This document shows positions 18,008 to 35,297 of a stretch of DNA of 64,000 nt, piece after piece. The stretch is from Corallococcus macrosporus. GTDB taxonomy: Bacteria; Myxococcota; Myxococcia; Myxococcales; Myxococcaceae. The stretch covers positions 62,001 through 126,000 of the forward strand of contig NZ_JAFIMU010000009.1 of assembly GCF_017302985.1 (NCBI RefSeq), given 5' to 3'. The notes beneath the pieces are model-generated. The model was not told the DNA's origin. It made no database searches and saw only the letters and a list, made by a program, of their open reading frames with translations. The first letter of the stretch is position 1. Each line of letters starts with the position of its first letter. Made by a program: the position numbers and the translations under genes.

Positions 18008-19615
18008 TCAGGTCTCTCCCCCCTGCTTCTCGCCGGGGCACTGCACCTGCACGTCCAGGCGGAAGGTCACCTTCTGCCCGTCGCGAGTCTTCTCCACCTT
18101 GCCCTCCTTCACGTCCTTGAAGCAGCGGTGGCCCTTCAAGGCGGCGGAGAGCGTGTCGATCTGCTTGGAGCTGTCCGTCTCCCCCTGGAGCATGATGCGG
18201 TCCAGGTCCACCTGGATGCGGTCGAACTTCACCGGCACCTCCGGCGGGACGCGCTGGGTGACCTCCGCCAGCAGGTTCACGGCGGACATCGCGGGCAGCG
18301 CCGCGGCGGGGCTCTCCACGCCCTTGAGCATGTTGAGGGCGCGGTCGTAGTTCGTCTCGCAGGTGCCCAGGATGCGCTGGGTCGTCTTGCAGAGCACCGC
18401 GTCCACCTCCGCCTCGCGGCGCGACAGCACCGTGTTGCGCACCACCCCGAAGGCGATGAGCAACAGCAGCAGCGTCACCGCGAAGGAGGCCAGGAGGCCG
18501 ATGCGGTCCTTCACGTAGTCGTAGCCGCCCTTGAAGGCGAACTCGCCCCGGCGCAGGTTGAAGCGCGGCGCCTTGGCCCCGGCCGCGTTGCCGCGCATGG
18601 CCAGCGCGTACGCCTGCGCCGCGGACGGCGTCTCCCTGGCGCCAATCATCGCGGCCGCGTCCGCCGGCAGCGCCATCACGCGCACCGGCAGGTTCAGGTC
18701 GCGCGACAGCTGCTCGGCCAGGCCCGGCATGCGCGCGGTGCCGCCGCACAGCACCACCGCGGAGACCTGCCGGCGGGTGCGCGCGGCGAAGGCCTTGAAG
18801 GACGGGCGCAGCTCACGCAGCACCGGCTGCAGGCCGCGCACGAAGGCGTTCGCGGCGCGCTCGGCGTCCGGCCCCTGCGCGGCGCCCGCCATGGCGCCGT
18901 GCGCTTCCTTCCACGCGTGGGCCTCCGGCAGCGTCGTCTGGAACTCCGTGGCCAGCGCGCGCGTCAGGTCGCGCCCGCCGCCCGCGAAGGTGCGCGCGAA
19001 CTCCACGCCCTTGCCCGGCTGGCCAATGGCCACCGACGTGCGCTCGTGGCCGATGTCCACCACCGCCACCGGGCCGCCCTCGGACGCGCCCTCGAAGAGG
19101 CCGGGCATCTGCGTGAAGAGGTTCTGGTACGCGAGCGCCGGGTGGGTGATGACGCGAGGGTCCACCTGGAGGCCGCCCAGGAGCGCGAGCAGCGACTGGA
19201 GCTCCTCCTTCTTCACCACGCCCACCAGCAGGTCCGCGGCCTTCTCCTTGCCGCCGGTGTCCTTCTGGCCGACTACCTGGTAGTCGTAGACGACCTCCGA
19301 GATGTCGAACGGCAACTGGCTGCCCACTTCAAAGGGCAGCGTCGCCTCCACGCGCTTGGGGTCGGAGAAGGGCAGGCTCACCGCGTGCGTGGTGAGGGAC
19401 GGGCCGGGCAGGGCGATGACGACCTGATCCACGTGCCCCTGCGGCATCTTCCCGAGCAGCTCCTCCACCGCGGCGCGCAGCGTCTCCGCGCGCTCGCCTT
19501 CCTGCGCGCGGCGCACTTCCGCGTAGGCCTGCGTGGTGCTGCTTTTCGCTCCGGAGTTGAGCACCACCCCCTTCACGGAGTGGCTGCCCAGGTCCAGGCC
19601 AAGAATGCGGGCCAT
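18008..19615 (-). CDS. gspL: Type II secretion protein GspL (PilM-like)
   Basis: 535 residues. The N-terminal part is an actin-like PilM/GspL ATPase-fold domain beginning LGLDLGSHSVKGVVL and including VVDIGHERTSVAI and VVLCGGTARMPGL. A single membrane helix (about 380-400) and a periplasmic ferredoxin-like domain follow. GspL recruits the GspE ATPase to the inner membrane. Well-preserved actin-fold phosphate loops make it closer to PilM than enterobacterial GspL is. It starts one base after the gspK stop. Confidence 0.9.
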   Translation of the reverse strand: MARILGLDLGSHSVKGVVLNSGAKSSTTQAYAEVRRAQEGERAETLRAAVEELLGKMPQGHVDQVVIALPGPSLTTHAVSLPFSDPKRVEATLPFEVGSQLPFDISEVVYDYQVVGQKDTGGKEKAADLLVGVVKKEELQSLLALLGGLQVDPRVITHPALAYQNLFTQMPGLFEGASEGGPVAVVDIGHERTSVAIGQPGKGVEFARTFAGGGRDLTRALATEFQTTLPEAHAWKEAHGAMAGAAQGPDAERAANAFVRGLQPVLRELRPSFKAFAARTRRQVSAVVLCGGTARMPGLAEQLSRDLNLPVRVMALPADAAAMIGARETPSAAQAYALAMRGNAAGAKAPRFNLRRGEFAFKGGYDYVKDRIGLLASFAVTLLLLLIAFGVVRNTVLSRREAEVDAVLCKTTQRILGTCETNYDRALNMLKGVESPAAALPAMSAVNLLAEVTQRVPPEVPVKFDRIQVDLDRIMLQGETDSSKQIDTLSAALKGHRCFKDVKEGKVEKTRDGQKVTFRLDVQVQCPGEKQGGET

Positions 19616-19616
19616 G

Positions 19617-21053
19617 CTATTCCTCTCTGTAATACACGAGCTTGCCCAGCCCGTCGTCCAGGCGGATGACGGCGGTGAGCGTCTTCTGGACGCTGCCCGC
19701 CTCTCCCACGGACTTGATGGTGAAAGTCTTGCTCTTGTCGCCCAGGTAGCGGTTCTGCTGGACGTTGCCCTTGATGAGCGGGTTGACGGCGATGCCGGCC
19801 TGCTCCACGACGCCCACGAAGTCCGCCACCGACATGCCGAAGAAGTTGAACATGCGCGCGGCGCGGATGCGGCTGATGAGCTCGTTGAGGAACACCGGGT
19901 CCGTCAGGCGCGGATCCGGCCGGTTGGGGTCCGCGGCGGACATGATGGCCAGCCCCAGCATGATGGGGTCGTCGGTGTTGACGTTCGGCTTGGAGTTGAT
20001 GTCCGGGTACACCGTGAGCCGGTCGCGGAAGGCCGCCATGAAGCGGTCGTTGACGCCATGCACGCGGTACAGCTCGTCCAGGCTGTCGAAGCGCGCGTTC
20101 TTGACGTCATAGCGCGGTTCGTAGCGGCTGTACGGGGAACCCTCGTCCGCGAAGCCCGTGACGAAGGGGTTCGTCGGGTCGCGCTCGTTGAGGTTGGACT
20201 GGGTGGCGTCCTCGTCGGACCAGTCCTTCAGCGCGATGATGGTGTCCTTGGGCGTGGAGCGCACCTTGTTGGCGTCGTCCTGCTGCCAGAGGAACTCGAA
20301 GCGCTTGTCCGCGAACATGTCCAGCATGCGCGCGGCGGTGGCCTGCGCCTCCGCGCCGCCGGTGTTCAGGCGCATGACGTTGAGCTTCTCCTCCTCGTCG
20401 CTGATGGTCGCGAGGAAGCAGCCCTCGAAGCCGCCAAAGGACCGCCGCTGCATCTGCGCCGCCATCTGCGTGGCCGCGCCCGCGCCTTCCTCCCCGTCCT
20501 CGCCGTCCATCTGGAACTTGGGGTCCACCTGCACGGGGTCCGTCTCCACGGGGCGGCCGTCTTCACCTTCCGCGCCGTCGCTCTTCACCAGCCCCTTGAG
20601 CATGTGGCAGTCCACGCGGGCCAGCTTCCAGAGCTGGAGGTTGAGCGACTGCGGCTGGAAGGCGTTCGCGCCCCCCGCGCCCGCGCCCGCGCCGCCCAGG
20701 GCCCCGCCCATGAGGCCGCTCAGCAGGCTGGCCGGGTTGGGGATGGGCGTCGCGTCCACCTGCTTCTGGAAGCGCAAGAGCAGCCGCCCCAGCGACAGGC
20801 CGGAGCGGGCCATGTAGTAGGCGCGCACTTCGTCCCGCTGGTTGGCGGCGAGCTGCAGGTCCACGCGGCTGTTGTAGGCGAACTCCGTGGCCACCACCGT
20901 GAGCAGCGTGATGGAGACGAGCGCGATGATGAGCGCCACGCCGCGCGAGCGCTTGTCCTTGCGCGCGGCCTGCGAGGGCGGCGCCGCGGCGGGAACCGGG
21001 CCCCGCGCCTTGCCGCGCCGGCGGAACGCCTGCTGGAAGTAGGGGAGGGCCAT
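19617..21053 (-). CDS. gspK: Type II secretion minor pseudopilin GspK
   Basis: 478 residues, the large tip pseudopilin. A basic leader is followed by RSRGVALIIALVSITLLTVV, the GspK-type prepilin segment that lacks the usual Glu5. The alpha domain and SAM-like repeat region are recognisable from LRYFG-like RMFNFFGMSV and NVNTDDPIMLGLAI. A Gly/Ala-rich insertion lies at about 110-130. The ATG overlaps the gspJ stop by one base (TGATG), so the two genes are translationally coupled. Confidence 0.9.
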   Translation of the reverse strand: MALPYFQQAFRRRGKARGPVPAAAPPSQAARKDKRSRGVALIIALVSITLLTVVATEFAYNSRVDLQLAANQRDEVRAYYMARSGLSLGRLLLRFQKQVDATPIPNPASLLSGLMGGALGGAGAGAGGANAFQPQSLNLQLWKLARVDCHMLKGLVKSDGAEGEDGRPVETDPVQVDPKFQMDGEDGEEGAGAATQMAAQMQRRSFGGFEGCFLATISDEEEKLNVMRLNTGGAEAQATAARMLDMFADKRFEFLWQQDDANKVRSTPKDTIIALKDWSDEDATQSNLNERDPTNPFVTGFADEGSPYSRYEPRYDVKNARFDSLDELYRVHGVNDRFMAAFRDRLTVYPDINSKPNVNTDDPIMLGLAIMSAADPNRPDPRLTDPVFLNELISRIRAARMFNFFGMSVADFVGVVEQAGIAVNPLIKGNVQQNRYLGDKSKTFTIKSVGEAGSVQKTLTAVIRLDDGLGKLVYYREE

Positions 21054-21727
21054 CAGTTGAACCTCGGCAGTTCCGTGTTGAGCACGATGCGCGTCTGCGT
21101 GGTGTAGCGCGCTTCCTTGCCCGCCTCATCCAGGGCGATGACGGTGATGCGCACGCGCGTGGGGAGGATGGACTTCTTCTCCGTGCGCCGCGTGTCCCAC
21201 TCGTCGTCCCACTCCTTCTTCTCCGAATCCCAGTAGGCGAACTCCACGCCCTTGACGCCCTCGAAGAGGACGTCGGTGGTGCCGCCCCGGTCCATGCGGT
21301 CCCCCACGTTGGGGTTCACCCGGCGCTTCAGGTCCTGCCGCTGCCGGGCGCCGCGCTCGCTGGAGTTCTCCACGAAGTACTCCACCACCGCCTGGTCGGA
21401 CTCCTTCACGTCCGTGTACAGGCGCTGGTGCGCGAACGTCGTGAACGTCAGCTTGTCGCGCTCGCCAATGAAGTTGGTGGGCCGGTCGTTCTGGTCGCGG
21501 AAGCGGCGCAGGTCGAAGCGGTCGCTCACGAAGGCGGAGCCAATCTCCCGCGCCATGCGGTTGAGCGACACGCGCACCATGCGGTAGCGCTCCGCCTCGC
21601 CCTCCACGACCTCCTTCGCGTTGATGCCCGTCTGGAAGGCCAGGGCGACGACGGTGCCCATGAGGGCGGTGATGCCCACCGCCACCATGACCTCCATGAG
21701 GGTGAAGCCACGCATGCGCCGCTTCAT
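21053..21727 (-). CDS. gspJ: Type II secretion minor pseudopilin GspJ
   Basis: 224 residues. MKRRMRGFTLMEVMVAVGI is a canonical prepilin leader: cleavage after Gly7, with Phe at +1 and Glu at +5. GspJ forms the pseudopilus tip with GspI and GspK. The ATG at 21727 overlaps the gspI stop by four bases (ATGA), which fixes the start; the frame is open further upstream but inside gspI. Confidence 0.92.
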   Translation of the reverse strand: MKRRMRGFTLMEVMVAVGITALMGTVVALAFQTGINAKEVVEGEAERYRMVRVSLNRMAREIGSAFVSDRFDLRRFRDQNDRPTNFIGERDKLTFTTFAHQRLYTDVKESDQAVVEYFVENSSERGARQRQDLKRRVNPNVGDRMDRGGTTDVLFEGVKGVEFAYWDSEKKEWDDEWDTRRTEKKSILPTRVRITVIALDEAGKEARYTTQTRIVLNTELPRFN

Positions 21728-22656
21728 CGGATGATCCCCCCCTGGCCACGCGGCATGCCCGGCAGGCCGCCGTTGAAGATGCCGCCCGGCAGCCGCGGGT
21801 TGATGCCGGTGTTGCCGTTGCCGCCGCCCTGGCGGCCGTTGGGGTTGTTGAGCTGGTTGAGGACCTGCGCCCGGTTGACCAGCGGCTCCCGCGTGTTCGG
21901 GTCCAGCATCTGCCCGTTTTGGCCGGGGATGGGGTTGTCCACCACCTGGCCCGTGCGCGGGTTCACCCACTGGTTCTCCGCGCCCGCGGTGGTGCCCGCG
22001 TTGGGCGTGAAGCCGCCGTTGCGGTCGCCGCCCGGCCCCAGCGACACGACGTGCGTCACCACGTCCACGCTCTCCACCTGGGTGCCTTCCTTCCAGTACA
22101 CCGTGAGGTGCACCTCGCGGACGGACTTGGTGAGCTGGTCCACCATCTGCGTGAACATGGGCTGCGCCATGCTCATGGCGGACGCGCCCAGGGGGCTGGC
22201 CGTGGTGGTGCCGCCGGGCGGCGTGCTGCCCTTGCCGTCACCGCCGCCGCCGCCGCCGAAGAGGCCGGCCAGGCCGCCCAGCGGGTCGCCGGAGTCGCCG
22301 CCGCCCATGGGCAGGTTGAAGATGGCGCCAATGAGCTGATCCGGCGTCACGCCGTCCGTCTTGGGCGCGATGATGCGGGCGCGCCACTTGAACTGGGGCC
22401 AGCCGTCGTCGGAGAAGTCGCCGGACTGCTCGTCGTCGTCCTGCTCGAAGCCGTCGTCGTAGAGCTTCTGCTCCAGGTCCGTCATCTTCGAGCGGGCCAG
22501 GAGCGACGCCACGGTGAGCCGCTTGGTGTAGACGTGGTTGGCCACCGCGCCGGAGTTGAGGTCGAAGATGGCCATCAGCGCGACGCTGAGGATGGCCATG
22601 GCCACCATCGTCTCCAGCAGGGTGAAGCCCGTGCGCCTGTGCGTCGGGAATCTCAT
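21724..22656 (-). CDS. gspI: Type II secretion minor pseudopilin GspI, unusually long
   Basis: 310 residues against roughly 120-140 for typical GspI. The N-terminus MRFPTHRRTGFTLLETMVAM is a normal prepilin leader with Glu5. A loop rich in Gly, Ser and Thr (about 110-150) interrupts the beta domain, and a tail rich in Asn, Gly and Pro (about 225-310) follows. No frameshift is evident: the stop overlaps the gspJ ATG, and the start overlaps the gspH stop by four bases. The extra segments are an insertion and an extension, not a fusion with a known domain. Confidence 0.88.
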   Translation of the reverse strand: MRFPTHRRTGFTLLETMVAMAILSVALMAIFDLNSGAVANHVYTKRLTVASLLARSKMTDLEQKLYDDGFEQDDDEQSGDFSDDGWPQFKWRARIIAPKTDGVTPDQLIGAIFNLPMGGGDSGDPLGGLAGLFGGGGGGDGKGSTPPGGTTTASPLGASAMSMAQPMFTQMVDQLTKSVREVHLTVYWKEGTQVESVDVVTHVVSLGPGGDRNGGFTPNAGTTAGAENQWVNPRTGQVVDNPIPGQNGQMLDPNTREPLVNRAQVLNQLNNPNGRQGGGNGNTGINPRLPGGIFNGGLPGMPRGQGGIIR

Positions 22657-23378
22657 GAGCGGGGCACCTCCAGGGCCTCGGGTGCGATGAACACCTTGCC
22701 CGTGAGGGGTGACACGTCCAGCGTCCACGCGTTGTCGCCCTGGCGCAGGAACACCATGGCGCGCTCCGTGTAGCCCTGCGGGAAGAAGTAGAGATAGGCC
22801 ACGCCGCTCTCCACCGGCTCGCGCTGCTGCCGCGTCCACACCGACACCGCCACGCCCGCCGGCAGCTGCTTGGGCGAGATCTCCTCCGCGGTGTACGCGG
22901 AGAAGGTGGACTGGGACTCGATGCGGTTCTTCTCCTCTTCCATCAGCTCCTGCGCGGACGGCTGCGAGCCCTCGGAGCGCGTGTAGTTCTTGCGCGCGTC
23001 GCCGCCGTTGTTGCCGTCGCGCGCGGTGCGCTCGCGGTCGCGCGCCTCGTCCCGCAGCGCCGCGTCCCGGTCGCGCGAGGTGGTGACGCCGCCCGCGGCG
23101 CACTCGGCGTGGTACTTCGTGGCTTCCTCACGCTTCGGGTCGGGGATTTCGAACACCAGCCGGCACGTCTTGCCGCTGAGCGCCGCCGAGTCGTAGAGCG
23201 AGCGGATGACGCCCGCCAGCTCCGTGGCGCTGCCCTTCGCCTTCGCGCCGGTGATGGCGCCGATGCCCACGGTCACCGCGGCGAACATCACCGCCGCGAT
23301 GGCCAGCGCGATGGAGATCTCAATCAGCGTCAGGCCGCGCGGAGCGCGACGGCGGCGGGCGGGAGCGGGCAGGGACAT
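22653..23378 (-). CDS. gspH: Type II secretion minor pseudopilin GspH
   Basis: 241 residues. The leader RRRAPRGLTLIEISIALAI gives a prepilin site with Glu5. A highly charged Arg/Asp/Glu region (about 100-155) is inserted in the globular domain, making it longer than the usual ~170. I use the ATG at 23378. A TTG at 23390, whose bases overlap the upstream stop (TTGA), is an equally plausible coupled start and adds four residues. Confidence 0.87.
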   Translation of the reverse strand: MSLPAPARRRRAPRGLTLIEISIALAIAAVMFAAVTVGIGAITGAKAKGSATELAGVIRSLYDSAALSGKTCRLVFEIPDPKREEATKYHAECAAGGVTTSRDRDAALRDEARDRERTARDGNNGGDARKNYTRSEGSQPSAQELMEEEKNRIESQSTFSAYTAEEISPKQLPAGVAVSVWTRQQREPVESGVAYLYFFPQGYTERAMVFLRQGDNAWTLDVSPLTGKVFIAPEALEVPRS

Positions 23379-23386
23379 GGCCGTCT

Positions 23387-23854
23387 TCAAGGCTGCACCT
23401 CCTGTGCCACGATGCCGCCGCTGAAGAGGTCCGCGGCCTCGCCGGTGCCGCCGGGCTTGCCGTCGGAGCCGAGCGACAGCACGGCGCCCGTCTTGCCCTC
23501 CATGCGGTAGAGGTACGGGTGGCCCCACGGGTCGATGGGCGGCGCGTCCAGCACCTTCGACTCGATGAGCGGCGTGAAGCCCTGCGCCTGTGACGGGAAG
23601 AAGCCCATCAGCCGGTGGTGGGCCTTGAAGAGCCCCTCCAGGCGGCGGATCTGCTCGCGCGCCTGGCGCTGCGTGGGCGTGAGGGTGTTGTCCTCGGTGG
23701 CCCACACCAGCGCGAACGCGAGGAGGCTTGCGCCCAGGAAGACGCCCAGGAGCAGGAGGCGGCCCAGGCGCGGCGAGCGGGCGCGGGCCTGCCCTCCAGG
23801 AACGGATCGCGCCTCGCGCGCGGACGTCGGTGAGGAAGTGTGCTCGGGGGTCAT
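23387..23854 (-). CDS. GspG-fold protein lacking the prepilin processing site
   Basis: 155 residues. The C-terminal half matches the neighbouring GspG almost motif for motif: PIDPWGHPYLYR (PLDPWGREYVYM in GspG) and GSDGKPGGTGEAAD (GADGNPGGEGSDAD), including the calcium-site residues. The N-terminus differs: a 30-residue polar leader, then a membrane helix (LGRLLLLGVFLGASLLAFALVW) with no G-x-T-L-x-E motif. It should stay as an uncleaved signal anchor. I chose the ATG at 23854 because AGGA lies nine bases upstream; the ATG at 23863 sits on top of that site. Probably a pseudopilus accessory; role unknown. Confidence 0.8.
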   Translation of the reverse strand: MTPEHTSSPTSAREARSVPGGQARARSPRLGRLLLLGVFLGASLLAFALVWATEDNTLTPTQRQAREQIRRLEGLFKAHHRLMGFFPSQAQGFTPLIESKVLDAPPIDPWGHPYLYRMEGKTGAVLSLGSDGKPGGTGEAADLFSGGIVAQEVQP

Positions 23855-23911
23855 CACGGGCATTCCTACGACAACACGCGGGAGGCGCGGCTTTGCTTCA
23901 GGAAACGCCCG

Positions 23912-24331
23912 TTACTGCCGGGCGTTCTGGTCCTTGGAGGAGATGTCGGCGTCGGAGCCCTCGCCGCCCGGGTTGCCGTCGGCGCCGTAGCTGGTGATGA
24001 CCGGCTTGCCGCCCTCGTTCATGTAGACGTACTCGCGGCCCCAGGGGTCCAGCGGCATGCGCTCCAGGTTCTGGGTGTCCACCAGCGCCTTGAGGCCCGT
24101 GGCGGTGTCCGGGTAGGAGCCCTTCTTCGTGTAGTAGAGCTTCATCGCGCTCTGGATGTTGCGGATGTCCAGCTTCGCGGTGTCCTGCTTGGCCTCTTCC
24201 AGCTTCGGGATGACGGCCACGCCCACCGCCGCCGCGATGAGCCCGAGGATGGTGATGACCACCATGATCTCGATGAGGGTCATGCCGCGGTTCTTGCGGC
24301 GCTGCTGCTTCTTCGCGTTCGTCGTGTGCAT
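23912..24331 (-). CDS. gspG: Type II secretion major pseudopilin GspG
   Basis: 139 residues, the subunit that assembles the pseudopilus. A short basic leader ends at KNRG, followed by MTLIEIMVVITILGL (prepilin peptidase cleavage after Gly, Glu at +5). The C-terminal GADGNPGGEGSDAD loop supplies calcium ligands. The ATG at 24331 is chosen for leader length and an AAGGTGA ribosome site; an in-frame ATG at 24364 would add 11 residues. It lies 72 bases after the small ORF and 57 before the GspG-like gene. Confidence 0.93.
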   Translation of the reverse strand: MHTTNAKKQQRRKNRGMTLIEIMVVITILGLIAAAVGVAVIPKLEEAKQDTAKLDIRNIQSAMKLYYTKKGSYPDTATGLKALVDTQNLERMPLDPWGREYVYMNEGGKPVITSYGADGNPGGEGSDADISSKDQNARQ

Positions 24332-24403
24332 GTCTTCACTCACCTTCGGGTGACTTTCTGGCAAGCCACCGCGCCATGGGTGTGTCGGGATGTCAGAAGC
24401 GCT

Positions 24404-24562: not shown

Positions 24563-25819
24563 CTAATGGATGGCCGTGTTCACCTGCAGAATCGGCATCA
24601 GGATGCTGAGCGCGACGAATGCAATCATCACGCCCATCACCACGATGAGCATGGGCTCCAGGAGGGAGGTCAGCGCGCCGATGCGCACGTTCACCTGCGT
24701 CTCGTAGGAGTCCGCCACCGACAGCAGCATGTCCTCCAGCTGCCCTGATTTCTCACCGATGGCGACCATGTGGTACACGAGCGGCGGGAACTGGCCGGAG
24801 CGCTTGAGCGGGTTGGCGATGCTTTCGCCCTCGCGGATGGATTCGCGGGCGTTCTCCACCGCGTCCGCCAGCACCGAGTTCGTCATCACCGCCTTGACGA
24901 TGTCCAGCGCGGCCAGCATGGGCACGCCGCTCTTGAGCAGCGTGGCCAGCGTGCGCGCGAAGCGGGAGATGGCCAGCAGGCGCACGAGGCTGCCGAAGAT
25001 GGGGGCCTTCAGCGTGAAGCGGTCCCACTTGGGCTTGCCCTTGGGGCTCTTGATCCAGCGCAGGAACGCCACCACGCCGGCGATGAAGGCCGGGATGATG
25101 ATGAACCACCACGCCTGCATCAGGTTGGACGCGCCAATGAGGATGCGCGTGTTGAGCGGCAGCGTGGCGCGCATGGTCTCGAAGATCTTCGTCACCTTCG
25201 GGACCACGAAGACCATCAGCAGGACGAGGATGCCGCCGCCCACCGCCAGCATGATGACGGGGTAGATCATCGTGCCGATGATCTTCTGCTGCAGCTTGGC
25301 CTGGTTCTCCGTGAAGTCCGCCAGCCGCAGGAGCACCTGATCCAGCGCGCCGGAGGCCTCACCCGCGCGCACCATGTTGATGTAGATGCTGGGGAAGATC
25401 TTCGGGTGCTGGGAGAAGGCGTCCGCCAGGGAAGAGCCTTCGTTGACGCGCTGCTTGATGTCCGACAGGGCGCGCTTGAGGCGCTCCTTCTCCGCCTGGT
25501 CCACCAGCGCGTTGAGGGAGTCCACGATGGTGACGCCCGCGCCCAGCAGCGTGGCGAGCTGCCGGGTGAGGATGGCGACGTCCTCCGTGGACACGCGGCC
25601 GCGGCCCAGCTTGCGCAGGTCCACGTCGCGCGCCAGCAGGGACGCGTTGGCGCCCTTGGAGACGCCCACGCGGCTGCCCTCCGCCTGGCCCAGCACGTCG
25701 GTGAGGAAGATGCCGTCGGCGCGCAGCTTGGAGCGCAGCGTCTTGGGCGAGTCCGCCTCCAGCAGGCCCTTCTTCTGCCTGCCCTGGGAATCAAGGCCTC
25801 TGTATTCGAAGACGGGCAT
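24563..25819 (-). CDS. gspF: Type II secretion inner-membrane platform protein GspF
   Basis: 418 residues, the polytopic platform protein. Two homologous cytoplasmic helical domains (about 65-185 and 270-385) are each followed by hydrophobic segments, with membrane helices near 170-190, 225-245 and the C-terminus. MPVFEYRGLDSQGRQKKG is a typical GspF start, and AREISEGSSL-like VNEGSSLADAF plus ANPLKRSGQFPPL are family motifs. It starts seven bases after gspE. Confidence 0.94.
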   Translation of the reverse strand: MPVFEYRGLDSQGRQKKGLLEADSPKTLRSKLRADGIFLTDVLGQAEGSRVGVSKGANASLLARDVDLRKLGRGRVSTEDVAILTRQLATLLGAGVTIVDSLNALVDQAEKERLKRALSDIKQRVNEGSSLADAFSQHPKIFPSIYINMVRAGEASGALDQVLLRLADFTENQAKLQQKIIGTMIYPVIMLAVGGGILVLLMVFVVPKVTKIFETMRATLPLNTRILIGASNLMQAWWFIIIPAFIAGVVAFLRWIKSPKGKPKWDRFTLKAPIFGSLVRLLAISRFARTLATLLKSGVPMLAALDIVKAVMTNSVLADAVENARESIREGESIANPLKRSGQFPPLVYHMVAIGEKSGQLEDMLLSVADSYETQVNVRIGALTSLLEPMLIVVMGVMIAFVALSILMPILQVNTAIH

Positions 25820-25826
25820 GGCGGAC

Positions 25827-27653
25827 CTAGATGTCCTCCTGCGTGATGCTCAGCACTTCGGCGATGGTCGTCTCGCCCAGGGCGATCTTCCGCACGCCGT
25901 CGTCCAGCAGCGTCGTCATGCCCTTGGCCAGGGCGGACTTCTTGATGGTGGACGCGTCCACGTTCTTGAGCACCAGCTGGCGCACGTCGTCGTCCACGAA
26001 GAGGAACTCGTAGATGCCGGAGCGCCCGCGGTAGCCGTTGCGGTTGCAGGACGGGCAGCCCACCGCGCGGTAGATGCGGTCCGTGTTGAACTTCGCCTTG
26101 AAGCTGGCGAGCGTGAAGCCCAGCTCCTTCAGCTCCGCGTCCGTGGGCGTGTACTGCTGCCGGCAGTCCGGGCACACCCGGCGCACGAGGCGCTGGGCGA
26201 GGATGCCGGTGAGCGACGACGCCACGAGGAAGGGCTGCACGCCCATGTCCACGAGTCGCGTCACCGCGCCCGCGGCGTCGTTGGTGTGCACCGTGGAGAG
26301 CACCAGGTGGCCCGTGAGGGACGCCTGGATGGCGATCTCCGCCGTCTCCTTGTCGCGGATCTCACCGACCATGATGACGTCGGGGTCCTGGCGGAGGAAG
26401 GAGCGCAGGCCCTGCGCGAACGTCAGGCCAATCTTCGGGGCGATGGCCATCTGGCCAATGCCCTTGAGCTGGTACTCGACCGGGTCCTCGACGGTGAGGA
26501 TGTTGAGGTCCGAGGTGTTGATCTTGGAGAGCGCGCCGTAGAGCGTCGTCGTCTTGCCGGAGCCCGTGGGGCCCGTCACCAGCACGATGCCGTGCGAGCG
26601 CTTGATGACGGACTCCATGTTGGCCAGCACCTGCGGGCTCATGCCGATCTCCGCCAGGTCCAGCAGCGTCGCCGTCTTGTCCAGGAGACGCATGACGATG
26701 CGCTCGCCGAAGGACGTGGGCGTGGTGGACAGACGGATGTCGATGTCGCGGCCCGCGAGCTTGATGCGGATGCGGCCGTCCTGCGGCAGGCGCTTCTCCG
26801 CGATGTTGAGCTGCCCCATCACCTTCACGCGCGCGATGATGGAGTTCTGGTAGCGCTTGGGCGGCTTGATGACCTCCTGGAGCACGCCGTCGATGCGGAA
26901 GCGCACCAGGAGCTCGCGCTCCATGGGCTCGATGTGGATATCGCTCGCGCGCTCCTTGGCGGCGCGGAAGAGCACGGAGTTCACCAGCCGGATGACGGGC
27001 GCTTCGTCGTCCGCGTCCAGCAGGTCCTTGGGCTCCTCCAGCTCATGGGCCAGCGAGTCCAGGTCCTCGGTGGTCTCCATCTCGTCCACGAGCGCTTCGG
27101 CCTCGTTGACGGAGCGGTCGTACACGCTGTTGATGGCGTCCACGATGGTGGAGGCCAGCGCGATGCGCGGCTGGATGGACTGGCCCAGCAGCAGGCGCGC
27201 GTGGTCCAGCGCGGTGGTGTCCAGCGGATCCGCCACCGCGAGCACCACCTCGTCCCCCTCCAGGGAGAGCGGGAGCACCTGCGTCTGGCGGGCGAAGTTG
27301 ATGGGGATGCGCTTGACCAGCTCCGCGTCCACCTCCTCCACGAAGATGCGCTGGAGGTAGGGCAGGTCCAGCTGGTGGCCCAGGGCGCGCGCGACGTCCT
27401 CCTCGCTGATCGCCTTCATGCCCACCAGGATTTCCCCCAGCCGTCCGCCCTTCTCCTGCTGGGCGGCGAGCGCCTCCTGGATCTTCTCCGGGGTGAGGGA
27501 GGGCACGAGCGCGCGGAGGATCTCCCCCAACGGCCGGCCACAGAGGTACGCGAGCCCGTGGCCCACGACCTGGGTGGCGTCGTTGCGGCCGCCAGACACG
27601 GCGGGCGTCGCGGCGGTGTCTTGAGTCGTCGTGGTGTCGGCGGTCAGGTCCAT
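25827..27653 (-). CDS. gspE: Type II secretion ATPase GspE
   Basis: 608 residues, the cytoplasmic hexameric ATPase that powers pseudopilus assembly. An N-terminal MshEN-type domain (about 40-190) precedes the catalytic core: GPTGSGKTTTLYG (Walker A, about 360-372), an Asp box, VGEIRDKETAEIA (Walker B) and STVHTNDAAGA (His box). The tetracysteine zinc motif CPDC...CPSC lies near 505-550. It starts five bases after the gspD stop. Confidence 0.95.
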   Translation of the reverse strand: MDLTADTTTTQDTAATPAVSGGRNDATQVVGHGLAYLCGRPLGEILRALVPSLTPEKIQEALAAQQEKGGRLGEILVGMKAISEEDVARALGHQLDLPYLQRIFVEEVDAELVKRIPINFARQTQVLPLSLEGDEVVLAVADPLDTTALDHARLLLGQSIQPRIALASTIVDAINSVYDRSVNEAEALVDEMETTEDLDSLAHELEEPKDLLDADDEAPVIRLVNSVLFRAAKERASDIHIEPMERELLVRFRIDGVLQEVIKPPKRYQNSIIARVKVMGQLNIAEKRLPQDGRIRIKLAGRDIDIRLSTTPTSFGERIVMRLLDKTATLLDLAEIGMSPQVLANMESVIKRSHGIVLVTGPTGSGKTTTLYGALSKINTSDLNILTVEDPVEYQLKGIGQMAIAPKIGLTFAQGLRSFLRQDPDVIMVGEIRDKETAEIAIQASLTGHLVLSTVHTNDAAGAVTRLVDMGVQPFLVASSLTGILAQRLVRRVCPDCRQQYTPTDAELKELGFTLASFKAKFNTDRIYRAVGCPSCNRNGYRGRSGIYEFLFVDDDVRQLVLKNVDASTIKKSALAKGMTTLLDDGVRKIALGETTIAEVLSITQEDI

Positions 27654-27658
27654 GGTCC

Positions 27659-30262
27659 TTACTCTCCGTCCCCCGGCTGGATGCGCAGCCGCTCGGCGTC
27701 CGCGTCCGGCGTGGGCGCGATCACCTCGGGCTGTGGCGCGGGGGCTGATCTCTCCGAACCCTCCGGAGGCGCCTCGAAATTTCGCGGTGCCTGCTCGCCC
27801 TCGGGGGCGGGCGTGGCACCTTCCGGAGCGGGAGGGGCTCCTCCGCCCGGCCGCGCGGGAGACGGGGAGGCAGGCGCCGCGCCGGCGGGACGGATGACGC
27901 GCTCGTTGGGCGTGCCGCTGCCGCCGTTCTCCACCCGCTGCTCTTCCTTGATGACGGACTGGTTCATGCGCGACAGGGGGCCGGGCTTGCGGCTGAAGTC
28001 CACCGCGACGTCGTAGCCGGGGACCTGGCCGTAGAACTGCTCCACGAACTGCTGCCGCTCCTTCATCTTGCGCTCGAAGATGCGACGGAAGTCCTCCTGG
28101 CCGCGGATGATGTAGGGCGTCAGGAAGAGCAGCAGGTTCGTCTTCGTCTTGCGGCGCGTGGTGTCGCGGAACAGGTGGCCCAGCAGGGGGATGTCACCCA
28201 GCACCGGCACCTTGGAGACGGACTCCAGCGTGCGGTCCTGCATGATGCCGCCAATCACCACCGTCTCCATGTCCTTGGCGATGACCGTCGTCTTGGCGCT
28301 GCGCTTCGACGTGGTGGGGCCCAGGACGGGGTCCGAGGACGCGATCTCCTCCGTCTGCTCCGTGATGACGAGGCGGATGTAGTCGCTCTCGTTGATCTGC
28401 GGCTTGACGGTGAGCTTCAGCTCCACGTTCTGGCGGGTGATGGGCGCGTACAGCGAGCCCAGGCCGCCCAGCGAACCCAGCAGCGAAGGATTGATGCCGC
28501 CGTTGGTGCCCGTGCCGGTGCCGCCCAGCGAGCTGCCCAGCGCGGACGGGGTGAAGCCGGACTGGAAGGGCACGTTCTGGCCCACCGTGATTTCGGCCTC
28601 CTCGTTGTCGCTGGTGAGCAGGTGCGGCGTGGACAGCACGTTCACGTCGGACGACTGCTGCATGGCGTTGAGCACCACGCCGAAGGCCGGGATGTCGATG
28701 CCCAGGTTCTTGAGCTCCGGCAGGACGGGGCCCTGGATGCCGGCGAGGAAGCCGCCCATGCTGGCCAGGTTCGCCAGGGAGAAGGACGGCGGGATGGAGC
28801 CGCCGGAGTAGTTGGTGCCCAGGATGCCGGGGATGGCGCCGTCGTCCGTCTTGAGGCTGAAGCCCTGGTGGAAGTTGATGCCGAACTCGCTGTTGCGGTC
28901 CAGGTTCACTTCCATGATGACCGCCTCCACGAACACCTGGCGGCGCGGCTGATCCAGCTGCTGGATGATCTGGACGATGTTCTTGTAGTCGCCCTGGCTG
29001 GCGACGATGACCAGCGAGTTGGTGCCCTTGTCGGCGGAGATCTTCACCTCGCCGCTGAACAGCTCCGCGGCCTGGGCGGGCGCGCGCGGCAGGCCCTGCG
29101 GCTGCTGCGGGATGGGGCCGCGCTGGGGGCGGTTGGCGGTGCCCTGCGCGAGCGACTGGAGCGTGCTGGCCAGCTCCTCGGAGTTGGCGTTCTCCAGCGG
29201 GTAGACGTTGATCTTGTTGCCGCTGCCGGACGGGATGTCCACCTCGCGCACCAGGTCCTGGATGCGGCCGAAGGCGGCGGGGCTGGCCACGATGATGAGC
29301 TTGTTGGTGCGCTCGTCCGGGATGATCTGCGACAGCGTGACCGCGCCGCCCGAGTCGGTGCCGCCGCCGGACACGCCTTCCGCGCCGGGAGGAGGCTGGC
29401 CGGGGGTGCCCTGCGTGAAGTTGCCGGGGCGCTGGCCCGCGCGGCCGCCCGCGCCGGCCTTGGCTTCAAAGAGCTTCTGGATGGTGTTGGCCACGTCCTG
29501 CGCGGTGGCGTACTGCACCTGGATGATGCGCATCTCGTCGCTGGAGGAGCGGCTGTCCAGCTGGTTGATCAGGCGCTCCAGGCGGTGGATGTTGGAGCCC
29601 ACGTCGTTGACGATGATGGTGTCCGGCGGGTACGGGATGGTGTCGCCGTCCTTGGACACGAGCTGCTGGAGGACGCCGCGCAGCGGCTCCACCTCCACGT
29701 ACTTGATCTTGAACAGCTTGGTGACCATCTGCTCGTTCGTCGTGTACGGGGTGTCCTCGTCCACGATGGTCGGGATGGGGTTCTGCTTCGCCGAGCGCTT
29801 GTCGACGATCTTCAGGAAGCGGCCGTACGGGTAGACGGCCAGGCCGTTCGCGTCGAGCGCGGCGAGGAACGCGGAGTAGAACGAGTCCGCGTCCACCTCC
29901 ACGCGGCCGTTCTCCGGACCGATGATGGAGATCTTCCCGCGCACGTTCTCCGGGAGGATGAACGTGCGGCAGGTGGCGTCCGACACGGTCTGGACGAGCT
30001 TCTCGATGTCCACCTTGTCGAAGTAGATGCCGTAGCGCGCGTTGCGCCGGGCCTGCTCGCACGAGGGCACCTGGCGGGGGCCCTGGTTCTCGGTGGGCGC
30101 GGCACTGCCGTTGCCCTGCGGGGTGATGGTCCGGTCGCGTTCACCCTGGGCCGCCGGAGCGGGGGCAGGGGTACCGGGCTGGGTGGGACGGCGCTGGGCC
30201 CACGCGGAGCCGGAGAGCGCGAGGCACAGACAGAGCAGCCAGGACGGGAGCGTCGTCTTCAT
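27659..30262 (-). CDS. gspD: Type II secretion outer-membrane secretin GspD
   Basis: 867 residues with a signal peptide (WLLCLCLALSGSAWA). N0-N3 ring domains (about 70-480) precede the secretin core, recognised by VFVEAVIMEVNLDRNSEFG, VGQNVPFQSG, then VPVLGDIPLLGHLFR and LLLFLTPYIIR. The last ~150 residues are Pro/Ala-rich. Gly/Pro-rich linkers lie between N1, N2 and N3. It forms the outer-membrane exit channel. A 28-base gap separates it from gspC. Confidence 0.95.
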   Translation of the reverse strand: MKTTLPSWLLCLCLALSGSAWAQRRPTQPGTPAPAPAAQGERDRTITPQGNGSAAPTENQGPRQVPSCEQARRNARYGIYFDKVDIEKLVQTVSDATCRTFILPENVRGKISIIGPENGRVEVDADSFYSAFLAALDANGLAVYPYGRFLKIVDKRSAKQNPIPTIVDEDTPYTTNEQMVTKLFKIKYVEVEPLRGVLQQLVSKDGDTIPYPPDTIIVNDVGSNIHRLERLINQLDSRSSSDEMRIIQVQYATAQDVANTIQKLFEAKAGAGGRAGQRPGNFTQGTPGQPPPGAEGVSGGGTDSGGAVTLSQIIPDERTNKLIIVASPAAFGRIQDLVREVDIPSGSGNKINVYPLENANSEELASTLQSLAQGTANRPQRGPIPQQPQGLPRAPAQAAELFSGEVKISADKGTNSLVIVASQGDYKNIVQIIQQLDQPRRQVFVEAVIMEVNLDRNSEFGINFHQGFSLKTDDGAIPGILGTNYSGGSIPPSFSLANLASMGGFLAGIQGPVLPELKNLGIDIPAFGVVLNAMQQSSDVNVLSTPHLLTSDNEEAEITVGQNVPFQSGFTPSALGSSLGGTGTGTNGGINPSLLGSLGGLGSLYAPITRQNVELKLTVKPQINESDYIRLVITEQTEEIASSDPVLGPTTSKRSAKTTVIAKDMETVVIGGIMQDRTLESVSKVPVLGDIPLLGHLFRDTTRRKTKTNLLLFLTPYIIRGQEDFRRIFERKMKERQQFVEQFYGQVPGYDVAVDFSRKPGPLSRMNQSVIKEEQRVENGGSGTPNERVIRPAGAAPASPSPARPGGGAPPAPEGATPAPEGEQAPRNFEAPPEGSERSAPAPQPEVIAPTPDADAERLRIQPGDGE

Positions 30263-30290: not shown

Positions 30291-31205
30291 TTAACGGACG
30301 TTGTAGGATTTGCGGATCGGCGCGCCGTTGCGCTCGATCTCGATCTCGATGCGGCTGGAGTCCTTCAGCTTCGAGTAGATCTCCAGCGCCTTCTCAGGGC
30401 TGTTCATGTCGAAGCCGTTGATGCGGCGGATGACGTCACCGTTCTGGACGCCGATCTTCGAATAGATGCTGTCCGGGCGGATGGAGAACAGCTTGAAGCC
30501 CACGGCCTGGCCGTCCTTGAAGGCCGGCACGATGCGCGCCTGCATCGCCACGTCGTTGAGGTTGCTCAACGTCTTGTCGATCTCCGCCTTGGGGACTTCG
30601 TACTCGTTCTCACCCGTGGACTTGATGCCGTTGCCCAGGCTGTTGGTCGGGGTGGCGGCGGGCGTGGCCGCGGGGGGAGGGGTGTAGGCGGCGACGGCGC
30701 CGTCACCGGGCTGCCCGTCGATGAACTCGCGGCGGCCGTTGTTGTTGATGATGACGCGCTCGCGCTCGATCTCCATGACGGTGGCGCCCATCAGGTTGTT
30801 GCCGATCATGTACGTCTGCGAGCGCTGCGTGGTCATGTCCTGGATGGACGCGAAGGACCAGTCCGGGTTGGCCGCGACGAGCGTGCCCAAGAGCTTCACG
30901 CGCAGGCCGCTCTTGGCCGGCGGAGCGTTGGCGTCGAACTCCGGCGTCGTGGGCTCCTTCACCGCGACCTCCGGCTCCGGCAGCTTCACGCCGGTGAGGC
31001 GCGACAGGCGCTCCGCGTCGATGGTGGCGAGGCCGCTGTCCGCGGCGTGGGTGCGCTGCGCGACGCGGGCGGGAGCCTCGGACGCGGGCGCGGGGGAGAT
31101 GGAGGATTCGACGAACAGGTTCACCGTGCGCGCCGCCAGGAGGGCGACGAGCAGGATGAACAACAGGTTCACGCTCCAGAAGTACTTGCGAAAGAAGAGT
31201 TCCAT
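30291..31205 (-). CDS. gspC: Type II secretion protein GspC with PDZ-like C-terminus
   Basis: 304 residues. A single N-terminal membrane helix (about 10-30) is followed by the homology-region domain (about 95-165), which contacts the secretin. A C-terminal PDZ-like domain (about 215-300, with YSKIGVQNGDVIRRINGF) ends the protein and may bind substrates. The ATG at 31205 is used; a GTG one codon earlier is in frame. It is the first gene of the gsp operon, 40 bases downstream of a near-consensus sigma-54 promoter. Confidence 0.92.
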   Translation of the reverse strand: MELFFRKYFWSVNLLFILLVALLAARTVNLFVESSISPAPASEAPARVAQRTHAADSGLATIDAERLSRLTGVKLPEPEVAVKEPTTPEFDANAPPAKSGLRVKLLGTLVAANPDWSFASIQDMTTQRSQTYMIGNNLMGATVMEIERERVIINNNGRREFIDGQPGDGAVAAYTPPPAATPAATPTNSLGNGIKSTGENEYEVPKAEIDKTLSNLNDVAMQARIVPAFKDGQAVGFKLFSIRPDSIYSKIGVQNGDVIRRINGFDMNSPEKALEIYSKLKDSSRIEIEIERNGAPIRKSYNVR

Positions 31206-31244
31206 CACGCTTCCGGGAGAAAGCCAGCCCCAGATGGGACCTTG

Positions 31245-31260
31245 AGCAAGGCAGGTGCCA
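31245..31260 (-). promoter_or_regulatory. Sigma-54 (-24/-12) promoter of the T2SS operon
   Basis: On the leftward strand the sequence reads TGGCACCTGCCTTGCT, against TGGCACG-N4-TTGCW. Only the seventh base differs, and the GG-GC spacing is exact. The predicted start site near 31235 leaves a 30-base leader before the gspC ATG. An NtrC-type activator gene lies immediately upstream. Confidence 0.75.
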
Positions 31261-31329
31261 TCGTTGGGCGGGCGTCAAACCCACGACTTACGGCCAAGTC
31301 CTTGAAATTATTTCGGAATAGGACGGAGC

Positions 31330-31351
31330 CCCGGCCAGGTGGGCGGCCGGG
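31330..31351 (-). terminator. Possible GC hairpin after the NtrC-type gene
   Basis: CCCGGCC and GGCCGGG pair around an eight-base loop, about 55 bases after the regulator stop. No T-run follows, so termination strength is doubtful. Confidence 0.25.
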
Positions 31352-31363
31352 ACAGGACGTCGG

Positions 31364-31374
31364 GACAAATTGTC
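31364..31374. promoter_or_regulatory. Palindrome GACAAATTGTC, candidate enhancer site
   Basis: A perfect 11-base palindrome about 120 bases upstream of the -12 element of the gspC promoter, a usual distance for sigma-54 activator sites. GGGACA occurs at 31349-31354 and again at 31362-31367, overlapping it. Confidence 0.4.
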
Positions 31375-31405
31375 AAAAGCAGGCGGGGGCCGGTGTGACG
31401 GCCTG

Positions 31406-32824
<1,419 letters not shown>

Positions 32825-32871: not shown

Positions 32872-33882
32872 TCAGGCCTGCTCTTCGTCCGGTTCCATGG
32901 GGCCGCCGCCCATGCGGCCGATGTCCTCGCGCTTCACCTTGTCCACGTTGAAGCGCCGGGCGCTGGCCAGCATGCGCGTCACGGTGGCGTCGAAGGTGGG
33001 AGGCGGGCCGTCCTTGCGGAAGCGCAGGAAGTTGAGCCGGGCGACGACGAAGTTCTTGAGGTAGGGGCTCTGGAGGCCGCGCTCCTTGAGGGCGTTGACG
33101 ACGGCCACCACCGCGTCGTCCAGCTCCAGCAGGCGCTCCGCCTGGGCGTCGCGCACGGCGATGGCCTCCGGCAAGGGCACGTCCTGGAAGCCGTCCACCA
33201 CCTTGACGAAGGGGTGGTAGGCGCCCGCGGAGAAGCGGGGGCGCTTCTCGTAGGCGGCGCCCATCGTGAGGAAGGAGGGCTCCTCGAAGAGGTGGGCGAA
33301 GGCGGACTCCTTGCCCGGGCGGTTCGCGCCCACGAGGCCGCGCGCCATGCGGATGACCTCCAGGGAGCGCTCCTTCAGGTTGTGGGCCTTCTCCGTGTTG
33401 AGGGCGAGGATTTGATAGGCCACGTCCTCGTCCGGAAGGAGCAGCGCGACGATGGATTTCGCGCCCAGCAGCTTGCTGGCGTTGAGGCGGTGGTTGCCGT
33501 TGGGCGTCCAGTAGCGCCCCTCCACGCGCACGGCGATGACGGGGTCCAGGAAGCGGTCCAGCCGCTCCATCGCGGTGGCCAGCCGCTTGACGTGGGGCTC
33601 GGACAGGTCGCGCTGGTAGGGCGTGGGCTCCACCTTGTCGATGGGGAGCACCGCGAAGACGACGGGGTGTCCGCCCAGCGGGTCTCGGTAGACGGAGAGC
33701 ACCTCGCCGCCGTCCTCGCGCACCGCCTGGAGGAGGGCGTCGGGGAAGGCCACGGCCTCGCTCGCGACCTCGTGCGGACCCAGGCCCCGCGACTTCGGCT
33801 CGGCCTTCTTGCGGCGCGGCTTGCGCGGCGCGGCCGACTTCGACCGGGGAGCGGCGGACTTGCGGGCGGACTTCGCGGCCAT
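32872..33882 (-). CDS. ParB/Srx-fold domain protein, not a partition protein
   Basis: 336 residues. A Lys/Arg/Ala/Ser-rich N-terminus (about 1-32) is followed by a ParB N-terminal-like domain (about 75-180): LPIDKVEPTPYQRDLSEPHV, DPVIAVRVEGRYWTPNGNHRLNASKLLGA. The NGNHR element corresponds to the GxHR box of ParB/sulfiredoxin-fold enzymes. I see no KorB/ParB helix-turn-helix and no parA neighbour. The second half is helical and unassigned. It lies between tldE and the NtrC-type gene, with gaps of 61 and 47 bases. A CTPase, nuclease or DNA-binding role is possible. Confidence 0.75.
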   Translation of the reverse strand: MAAKSARKSAAPRSKSAAPRKPRRKKAEPKSRGLGPHEVASEAVAFPDALLQAVREDGGEVLSVYRDPLGGHPVVFAVLPIDKVEPTPYQRDLSEPHVKRLATAMERLDRFLDPVIAVRVEGRYWTPNGNHRLNASKLLGAKSIVALLLPDEDVAYQILALNTEKAHNLKERSLEVIRMARGLVGANRPGKESAFAHLFEEPSFLTMGAAYEKRPRFSAGAYHPFVKVVDGFQDVPLPEAIAVRDAQAERLLELDDAVVAVVNALKERGLQSPYLKNFVVARLNFLRFRKDGPPPTFDATVTRMLASARRFNVDKVKREDIGRMGGGPMEPDEEQA

Positions 33883-33943
33883 GCGGGCGGACCTCGTGCC
33901 GTGAGGAAGAGGCCCGCCAGCGTAGGCGACCGGGTGCGGCTGG

Positions 33944-35290
33944 CTACGCGCCCGATACGGTGAGCTGTCGGAAGCGGACAGTGGGCGCGCCCACGCTGCC
34001 GCCGCGGAACTGGAGGTCGCTGCCCACCGCGTCCAGGTCCTTGAGCATCTGGAGGAGGTGACCCGCGACCGTCACTTCCTGCACCGGGTGCGTCAGCTCA
34101 CCGTTCTCGATCCACAAGCCGTTGGCCCCGCAGGACATGTCCCCGGACACCGGATCCGCGCCGTGGCCCAGCAGGGCGGTGACGTAGAGGCCCTGGGGCA
34201 CCTCCCGGATGAGCTCCTCCGGCGTCTTCGTGCCCTTCTCCAGGTAGAGGTTCGTGGTGCCGATGCCCGGCAGCGCGCTGTAGCCGCGCGACGCGTTGCC
34301 CGTCGTGCGCGCCTTCGCCTTGCGTGCGGTGAAGGCGTCGTAGAGGAAGCCGGACAGCACGCCCTCATCCAGGATGGGCGTGCGGCGGGTGGGGACACCC
34401 TCTCCGTCGAAGGGCGCGGTGGCCAGGCCCCGGGGAAGCAGGCCATCATCCACCAGCGAGACGTGCTTGCCCGCGAGCCGCTTGCCCACGTGCGGCGCGA
34501 GCACGCTGGACTGCTGGTAGACGGCGTTGCCGTTGGCGGCCTGGGACAGGTTGCCCACGAAGCTCGCGGCGACGAGCGGGTCGAACACCACCGGCACCTG
34601 CTGCGTCTTCACCGGCTTCGCGCCCAGCATGCGCACGGCGCGCTTCGTGGCCTCGCGGCCGATGGACTCCGGGGACTCCAGGTCGTCCAGGAAGCGCTTG
34701 TAGTCCAGCCAGTAGCCCGTCTGGAGCTGCCCGTCCTGCGCGGCCACCGGCACCGCGACCAGGTACACGTACGTGCCGGAGTAGCCGCCGGACGCGCCCT
34801 CGCTGGACGCGAGGTACACCTCCGCCACGAAGTCGCCCGCGGACACGGAGTCGAACGTGGCCACGCGTGAGTCCTGCGCCCGGCCCGCGCGCTCCGCCTC
34901 CAGCGCGGCGTTGATCTTCCAGTCGCCGGGGAGGTTCGCGACCTTCGGGTCGAAGAGGACGCCGGTGTCCCCGCGCTTGCCCAGGTCCTTCGCGCCGGGC
35001 AGGCCGTTGAGCTTGTTGGGCGCGGCGGCCTCCGCCAGTTGCACGGCCAGGTCCACCACGCGCTCCAGGCCGGCGGTGGTGAAGTCGGACGTGTACGCGA
35101 AGCCCAGCCGGTCCTTCACGATGACCCGCACGCCCACGCCCTTGCTGGTGGCCTCCGTGAGGTCCTCAATCTGGCCTTCGCGGACGCGCACGCTGCTCTG
35201 GCGGCCCACCTCCAGGTACGCCTCCGCCTGCTTCGCGCCCTTCTTCACGGCGCGCTGGACGATCTTCTTCGCGAGCTGTTCGTAGTTCAC
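33944..35290 (-). CDS. tldE: TldE/PmbA, non-catalytic subunit of TldD/TldE protease
   Basis: 448 residues. It has the TldD/PmbA fold but no HExxxH, as expected for the TldE (PmbA) partner. Recognisable segments are LTEATSKGVGVRVIV (about 43-57), VVFDPLVAASF and a C-terminal GDMSCGANGLWIENGEL. TldD/TldE trims peptides, for example microcin leaders in E. coli. The start is a GTG with GAGG five bases upstream, seven bases after the tldD stop, so tldD-tldE form an operon. Confidence 0.9.
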   Translation of the reverse strand: MNYEQLAKKIVQRAVKKGAKQAEAYLEVGRQSSVRVREGQIEDLTEATSKGVGVRVIVKDRLGFAYTSDFTTAGLERVVDLAVQLAEAAAPNKLNGLPGAKDLGKRGDTGVLFDPKVANLPGDWKINAALEAERAGRAQDSRVATFDSVSAGDFVAEVYLASSEGASGGYSGTYVYLVAVPVAAQDGQLQTGYWLDYKRFLDDLESPESIGREATKRAVRMLGAKPVKTQQVPVVFDPLVAASFVGNLSQAANGNAVYQQSSVLAPHVGKRLAGKHVSLVDDGLLPRGLATAPFDGEGVPTRRTPILDEGVLSGFLYDAFTARKAKARTTGNASRGYSALPGIGTTNLYLEKGTKTPEELIREVPQGLYVTALLGHGADPVSGDMSCGANGLWIENGELTHPVQEVTVAGHLLQMLKDLDAVGSDLQFRGGSVGAPTVRFRQLTVSGA

Positions 35291-35297
35291 GGTGTCC

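Follow-up and report, generated by a model that had tools for sequence, protein, structure and literature searches.

Regulators of the NtrC/AtoC/ZraR type carry receiver, AAA+ and Fis-type helix-turn-helix (HTH) domains and act at -24/-12 promoters. The locus reported here has the same combination, together with palindromic tandem sites about three turns apart, lying ~130–170 bp upstream of the predicted start. It differs from these regulators in its operator, GACA-N3-TGTC, in having no adjacent kinase and in its target, which is a type II secretion system (T2SS) operon. In the Nla28 regulon of Myxococcus xanthus, sigma-54 promoters are likewise preceded by upstream repeats that are bound by an NtrC-like activator, but the half-site is CT(C/G)CG(C/G)AG (PMC7910581). 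No exact copy of this half-site was found in 31208–31406, the nearest one being at 31627, inside the regulator gene, and Nla28 was rejected as the activator. Secretion machinery under an enhancer-binding protein has also been described in the sigma-54 control of the T3SS in Desulfovibrio (PMC4641369) and of the T6SS (mentioned, by citation, in PMC3162934). Those cases concern other machines and other operators, whereas here spare subunit copies would fall within the regulon.

It was reported in 2025 that, among genes predicted to depend on sigma-54, T2SS COGs, including COG3031, show enrichment predominantly in Myxococcia (PMC12316311); therefore the promoter is already in print, in general terms, as a prediction. 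That report differs from the present one in staying at the COG level: the strings "palindrom", "UAS" and "upstream activat" are absent from its main text, and its accessible part names no activator for the T2SS. In titles and abstract openings of the open-licence papers listed by the searches, no T2SS-specific activator, operator or orphan-GspC regulon was described.

Because GspD of M. xanthus is MXAN_2514 (PMC3222651), its gspC and activator are probably MXAN_2515 and MXAN_2516, respectively. The accessible literature on MXAN_2513 to MXAN_2518 yielded nothing on regulation; in a developmental transcriptome (PMC6791715), the word "secretion" occurs in the reference list only, and MXAN_25 names are absent from the main text. 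One laboratory stock of GJV1 is reported to carry a mutation in MXAN_2515, probably the M. xanthus gspC (PMC8963815). MYXO-CTERM proteins such as the surface receptor TraA use the T2SS in myxobacteria (PMC11980579), and digestive enzymes are thought to travel through it (PMC10196010). T2SS genes of M. xanthus were reported to be up with prey in RNA-seq (PMC10196010), which fits the first-pass suggestion that starvation or prey may be the signal and does not by itself prove dependence on sigma-54.

Architecture of the region upstream of the T2SS operon

The window, that is, the whole 64-kb stretch of DNA analysed (G000:C9:62001–126000), contains on its minus strand an activator gene (32824–31406), a gap of 197 bp, gspC (31208–30291) and further T2SS genes down to gspN at 16465. 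The features are as follows.

31406..32824, minus strand: NtrC/AtoC-type enhancer-binding response regulator, 472 aa, with Response_reg, Sigma54_activat and HTH_8 domains
31397..31407, minus strand: predicted distal activator site (UAS1), GACAGGCCGTC; overlaps the activator stop codon, pair spacing conserved
31364..31374, minus strand: predicted proximal activator site (UAS2), 11-bp palindrome GACAAATTGTC / GACAATTTGTC; GACA-N3-TGTC in 79/90 family loci
31351..31361, minus strand: third GAC-N5-GTC site; in most, not all, loci of the window's genus
31289..31320, minus strand: middle block, conserved, lying between the predicted enhancers and the promoter; contains the palindrome GAAATAATTTC at 31304–31314 and an IHF-like match at 31295–31307
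31245..31260, minus strand: sigma-54 -24/-12 element TGGCACCTGCCTTGCT, assigned from sequence; kept in 90/90 family loci at ≤2 mismatches
31234..31235, minus strand: predicted transcription start, 12–13 nt past the -12 GC and placed from the GC position
30291..31208, minus strand: gspC, first gene of the T2SS operon; NF041515 above cut-off
27659..30262, minus strand: gspD secretin; TIGR02517 above cut-off
25827..27653, minus strand: gspE ATPase; TIGR02533 above cut-off
24563..25819, minus strand: gspF; TIGR02120 above cut-off
23912..24364, minus strand: gspG; TIGR01710 above cut-off
23387..23863, minus strand: second GspG-like pseudopilin beside gspG; PF08334, TIGR01710 below curated cut-off
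22653..23705, minus strand: probably gspH, named from position; prepilin N-terminal motif (PF07963), ORF start too far upstream
21724..23103, minus strand: gspI-like pseudopilin; TIGR01707 below cut-off, ORF start too far upstream
21053..21970, minus strand: gspJ-like pseudopilin; PF11612
19617..21053, minus strand: gspK-like; NF037980 below cut-off
18008..19615, minus strand: gspL/PilM-like; PF11104
17449..18006, minus strand: gspM; PF04612
16465..17445, minus strand: gspN; TIGR04411 above cut-off

The first-pass annotation had proposed a -24/-12 element with an upstream palindrome in front of the whole T2SS operon, and an NtrC-type activator as the next gene upstream. Each part was borne out. 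The downstream genes keep the order of a type II secretion operon, from gspC, D, E, F and G through gspN, with gspI and gspK assigned from sub-cut-off matches and gspH from position only. By gspC, the nearest named relatives were Corallococcus strains, with identities of 92–98%. The stretch 32872–36779, upstream of the activator on the same strand, holds a PmbA/TldD pair and a 336-aa gene that neither Pfam nor NCBIfam matched.

The sigma-54 site TGGCACCTGCCTTGCT reads from 31260 to 31245 on the minus strand, with correct GG-N10-GC spacing; it departs from TGGCACGNNNNTTGCW by a single mismatch, at position 7, where C replaces G, and it lies 36 bp ahead of the gspC GTG at 31208. On both strands of the window it is the sole GG-N10-GC site with ≤1 mismatch to TGGCACGNNNNTTGCW; three further sites have 2 mismatches, and among all window sites with ≤2 mismatches only TGGCACCTGCCTTGCT has GAC-N5-GTC within 150 bp upstream (both strands considered). 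No sigma-70-like promoter was found in 31180–31430. The genome contains rpoN (one match). Genome-wide, the bare pattern TGGCACN5TTGC gave 8 matches versus 13 for the reversed pattern, i.e. no enrichment, and a bare consensus match was rejected as evidence. The gspC site is convincing because it is conserved.

The palindrome GACAAATTGTC is the only GACAN3TGTC in the window. Beyond the elements first annotated, GAC-N5-GTC was found at 31351–31361 and 31397–31407, and a conserved block at 31289–31320. The window holds 22 GAC-N5-GTC sites in total, 3 of them inside a single span of 57 bp upstream of gspC. The palindromes at 31364–31374 and 31397–31407 are 33 bp apart, equal to three helical turns; this helically phased pair of dyads ahead of the -24 element has the layout of a predicted tandem enhancer. 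The IHF-like match at 31295–31307 has one mismatch, and the window holds 4 such matches versus 2.3 expected by chance; its CAA core was not conserved among relatives. The block at 31289–31320 may bend DNA or bind another protein, as judged from its sequence.

The activator was matched by PF00072 (receiver), PF00158 (sigma-54 AAA+) and PF02954 (Fis-type HTH), and it carries both Asp54 and GAYTGA. It scored below the curated cut-off of each of the best 25 of 113 matched NCBIfam models; AtoC was the best among those 25 (468 of 714 bits), and NtrC reached 434.9 of 558.6. It was likewise below the cut-offs of the AtoC, ZraR, NtrC and NtrX equivalogs. No histidine kinase was found among the activator neighbours scanned. 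Taken together, the region is very probably a classical enhancer-dependent sigma-54 promoter of the whole T2SS operon, driven by the adjacent activator; we infer the link between activator and promoter from position and conservation.

Conservation of the promoter and the adjacent activator gene

It was found that gspC is present in 95 of the 96 genomes of the family (f1, which record titles suggest is Myxococcaceae, in the phylum Myxococcota). The upstream regions of 90 main gspC genes were examined; outside this set are G086, which has no gspC, G082, where the contig is cut, G085, and three genomes for which a complete main gspC was not listed (G008, G019 and G026). At seven loci of group g26 a second gspC lies upstream, and there the start of the main gspC was set by hand. 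The sigma-54 site was present in all 90 loci, with one mismatch in 83 and two in 7, and its 5' end lay 25–52 bp before gspC. The corresponding fractions for shuffled upstream regions were 0.0002 at 1 mismatch and 0.0049 at 2. In G085, read separately, a site with two mismatches stands at -28 and GACAGCTCGTC at -131, and the G082 site was recovered in the palindrome-plus-promoter pattern search.

A phylum-wide search detected gspC in 184 of 195 genomes. Ninety of the gspC-bearing genomes lie outside f1, and 34 of these were examined, mostly the best-scoring among those listed. Within 90 bp of gspC, a 1-mismatch site was observed in 28 of the 34 loci and a site with ≤2 mismatches in 29. By family, the 1-mismatch site was seen in f2 (9/9), f3 (6/6), f5 (1/1), f6 (3/3), f7 (1/1), f9 (1/2), f10 (2/2) and f11 (5/5), and in f8 in 0/5, so that 8 of the 9 other families sampled have it. 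Among the sequences collected, L125 (BNCN01000003.1), titled Comamonas sp. KCTC 72670, contains a full-length myxobacterial gspC with 75% identity, and is probably mislabelled. Loss of the GG/GC doublets in related species had been named at the outset as an observation that would speak against the promoter; at ≤2 mismatches the doublets were kept in 90/90 family loci and 29/34 loci of other families.

The activator lies directly before gspC in 65 of the 90 family loci. The promoter is nevertheless kept in the other 25. Of these, 23 gave no match for the activator, the contig stopping within 700 bp in 5 cases; a further locus gave a match 1.1 kb off, and the last a 52% match in the opposite direction. 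Many of the distant loci, among them those of g4, g26, f10 and f11, showed no activator in the 1.5 kb examined, and the promoter was mostly kept. An alignment of 92 activator rows from family and other-family loci was made; it contains two duplicates (L151 = L083, L157 = L098), one 52% match, and rows from L077, L218 and L219 that lie ~1 kb from gspC. The loop GA(F/Y)TGA was found in all 88 rows covering it (65 GAFTGA, 23 GAYTGA), and the phospho-acceptor Asp was kept in 85/85 rows covering that position. In the recognition helix, RTIYRK was present in 91/91 covering rows, 66 of which were identical to AARLLGIAARTIYRKL.

The loci with a promoter and no neighbour in the stretch examined raise the question of whether the promoter depends on sigma-54 but is activated by another enhancer-binding protein, the neighbour being adjacent by history only. 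Candidates would be plentiful, as 53 such activator genes were reported in M. xanthus (PMC7910581), and family f3 has the neighbour without the palindrome. However, adjacency, promoter and palindrome co-occur in most family loci and also in f2 and f6 loci, recognition helix and palindrome alike hardly vary, and no exact copy of the half-site published for Nla28 lies upstream of gspC. Activation by a protein other than the neighbour is hence regarded as improbable, and the adjacent response regulator is preferred.

Conservation of the palindromes and their recurrence at gspC paralogues

The palindrome is conserved as well: GACAN3TGTC was present within 280 bp of gspC in 79 of the 90 family loci. 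The distance to a GAC-N5-GTC partner was 31 bp in 15 loci, 32 bp in 5 and 33 bp in 52 (72/90). In 66 of the 79 loci the proximal palindrome ends 103–105 bp before the TGG of the promoter, and in the other 13 at 43 to 114 bp. The middle block consists of GRAATRATTYC and close variants, followed by CTTG, and was observed in 66 of the 90 loci, 43–45 bp before TGG; a longer pattern of it, with 2 mismatches allowed, had one match in the window's own genome. When 22 chosen loci were aligned, each of the two palindromes, the middle block and also the promoter stood out as intergenic peaks of conservation, which was low elsewhere. Outside the family, GACAN3TGTC within 280 bp was present in 21 of the 34 loci, with none in f3 (0/6), f5 (0/1) and f9 (0/2). 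In f8, 3/5 loci had the palindrome and 0/5 a good sigma-54 site within 90 bp; two distant gspC loci, L161 (titled Deltaproteobacteria) and L162 (titled Bdellovibrio sp.), also showed GACAN3TGTC without a sigma-54 site.

A search of the 9.8-Mb genome with GACAN3TGTC-N85..115-TGGCNCN5TTGC, referred to here as the module, returned two matches, one at the T2SS operon and the other at C3:83820–83935. Spacers of 60–90 and 90–120 gave no additional match, a looser palindrome with a spacer of 62–92 gave the same two promoters, and the reversed-pattern controls gave 0. The second module precedes an orphan gspC (L101:2930–3784, minus strand; C3:82935–83750) located beside an Exo_endo_phos gene. The orphan gspC comes with a sigma-54 site of its own and with three GAC-N5-GTC sites, and no gspD was found near it in the 7 kb read. 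A GAF-containing NtrB-like histidine kinase gene (L101:5519–6976; G000:C3:85521–86975) lies within ~5.5 kb of the second gspC in ~15 genomes. It has one match in each of 91 of the 96 genomes, mostly away from the second gspC. As a partner of the activator this kinase (C3:85521–86975) was set aside and is kept as a weak lead only, the link being inconsistent and the kinase being present in G086, which has no gspC.

Across the 96 family genomes, the spacer patterns gave 105 unique module sites (from 18 and 95 rows, with the reversed control at 0 in each). Placement before gspC genes is near-exclusive: 99 of the 105 sites precede gspC genes when PDZ-only short forms are included. By coordinates, 68 lie before the main gspC, plus one before a main gspC cut by the contig end, and 30 lie before second or shortened gspC genes, most of these assignments being read directly, others made by coordinates, and one, G014, taken from the analogous site in its sister G015. 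Five of the remaining sites (L203–L207, in five large family genomes) stand before a 37-aa ORF, conserved and containing a hydrophobic stretch, 134–163 bp ahead of a gene for an M35 metalloprotease (Pfam was run for one locus). The last stands before a protein of 240 aa that starts like a signal peptide and gave no Pfam match. A possible further target in the window's own genome is a 226-aa ORF in L004 whose start is signal-like; it is preceded by TGGCACATCGATTGCG, and 56 bp upstream of that element GACACGTTGTC begins.

In 16 of 22 chosen second-gspC loci, the module was found ahead of the second gspC itself or of a truncated gspC preceding it, and in six (L174, L175, L178, L180, L181 and L182) it was not found. 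Elsewhere in the same 22 loci there were only two matches, one each in L172 and L177, both on the opposite strand. The divergent sigma-54-like site at L172:3272–3287, and the matching place in L177, lies ~270–290 bp upstream of the second gspC and precedes a Uma2-family gene (PF05685), the palindrome GACACTTTGTC being common to it and the second gspC. Six mini-GspCs of 158–214 aa encoded behind the module were scanned (L194:1645–2217, L210:2887–3396, L195:817–1461, L198:924–1457, L208:2705–3325 and L209:2839–3315). All six end in a PDZ_6-like stretch (above the Pfam cut-off in one), and none had a T2SSC match at E 0.01. Their N-terminal hydrophobic stretch looks like a membrane helix. The module at gspC paralogues may have spread by gene duplication, and its retention there suggests selection.

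The presence of the palindrome without a sigma-54 site in L161 and L162, and the second palindromic block GRAATRATTYC between palindromes and promoter, would agree with the palindromes belonging to a different DNA-binding protein, a repressor or a second activator, while the sigma-54 activator acts elsewhere or from solution. But the 31–33 bp spacing and the distance of 103–105 bp from TGG (66/79) fit tandem enhancer sites, and palindrome and sigma-54 site recur jointly before gspC paralogues. A separate owner of the palindromes thus appears slightly less probable still than a different activator. Chance similarity or carried-over neutral sequence, which would suit the lack of genome-wide enrichment of consensus-like sites, is very improbable given that the conservation peaks are sharp with unconserved sequence between them, that the site shifts in position (5' end 25–52 bp ahead of the gene) while its letters stay, and that reversed-pattern controls gave 0 in 96 genomes.

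Proposed control of type II secretion and its significance

In the proposed mechanism, the response regulator encoded at 31406–32824 would be phosphorylated at Asp54 and would bind as dimers to 31364–31374 and 31397–31407. The DNA between enhancers and promoter would then bend, possibly at the conserved block 31289–31320, so that the AAA+ ring of the activator with its GAYTGA loop could open the closed sigma-54 complex, and transcription would start near 31234. The orphan second gspC, and PDZ-only GspCs in some relatives, would be driven by the same module. Since the module is common to the T2SS operon and the GspC paralogues, one activator would make both together. The best reading of these sequences is a dedicated sigma-54 regulon that turns on type II secretion plus extra GspC proteins; the module before scattered gspC copies suggests that machine and spare parts are made together on demand.

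As a sigma-54/NtrC-type regulon it is of a familiar sort, and its target set is unusual in the near-exclusive attachment to gspC genes. The candidate regulator, operator and promoter make control of the T2SS testable in M. xanthus. Loss of rpoN is stated to be lethal in this organism (PMC12316311), and the module provides a concrete candidate explanation for that effect.

That 99 of the 105 module sites lie before gspC genes, truncated ones included, raises a new question on the role of GspC. With rather less than even confidence, the GspC repertoire of the Myxococcota could be inducible: one sigma-54 activator would raise the T2SS, orphan full-length GspCs and PDZ-only mini-GspCs, and the latter two, by joining the machine or competing in it, would retune the choice of exported proteins. 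One step beyond this tentative reading, the T2SS itself is essential in M. xanthus, and dependence of its operon on sigma-54 may explain why rpoN is undeletable there.
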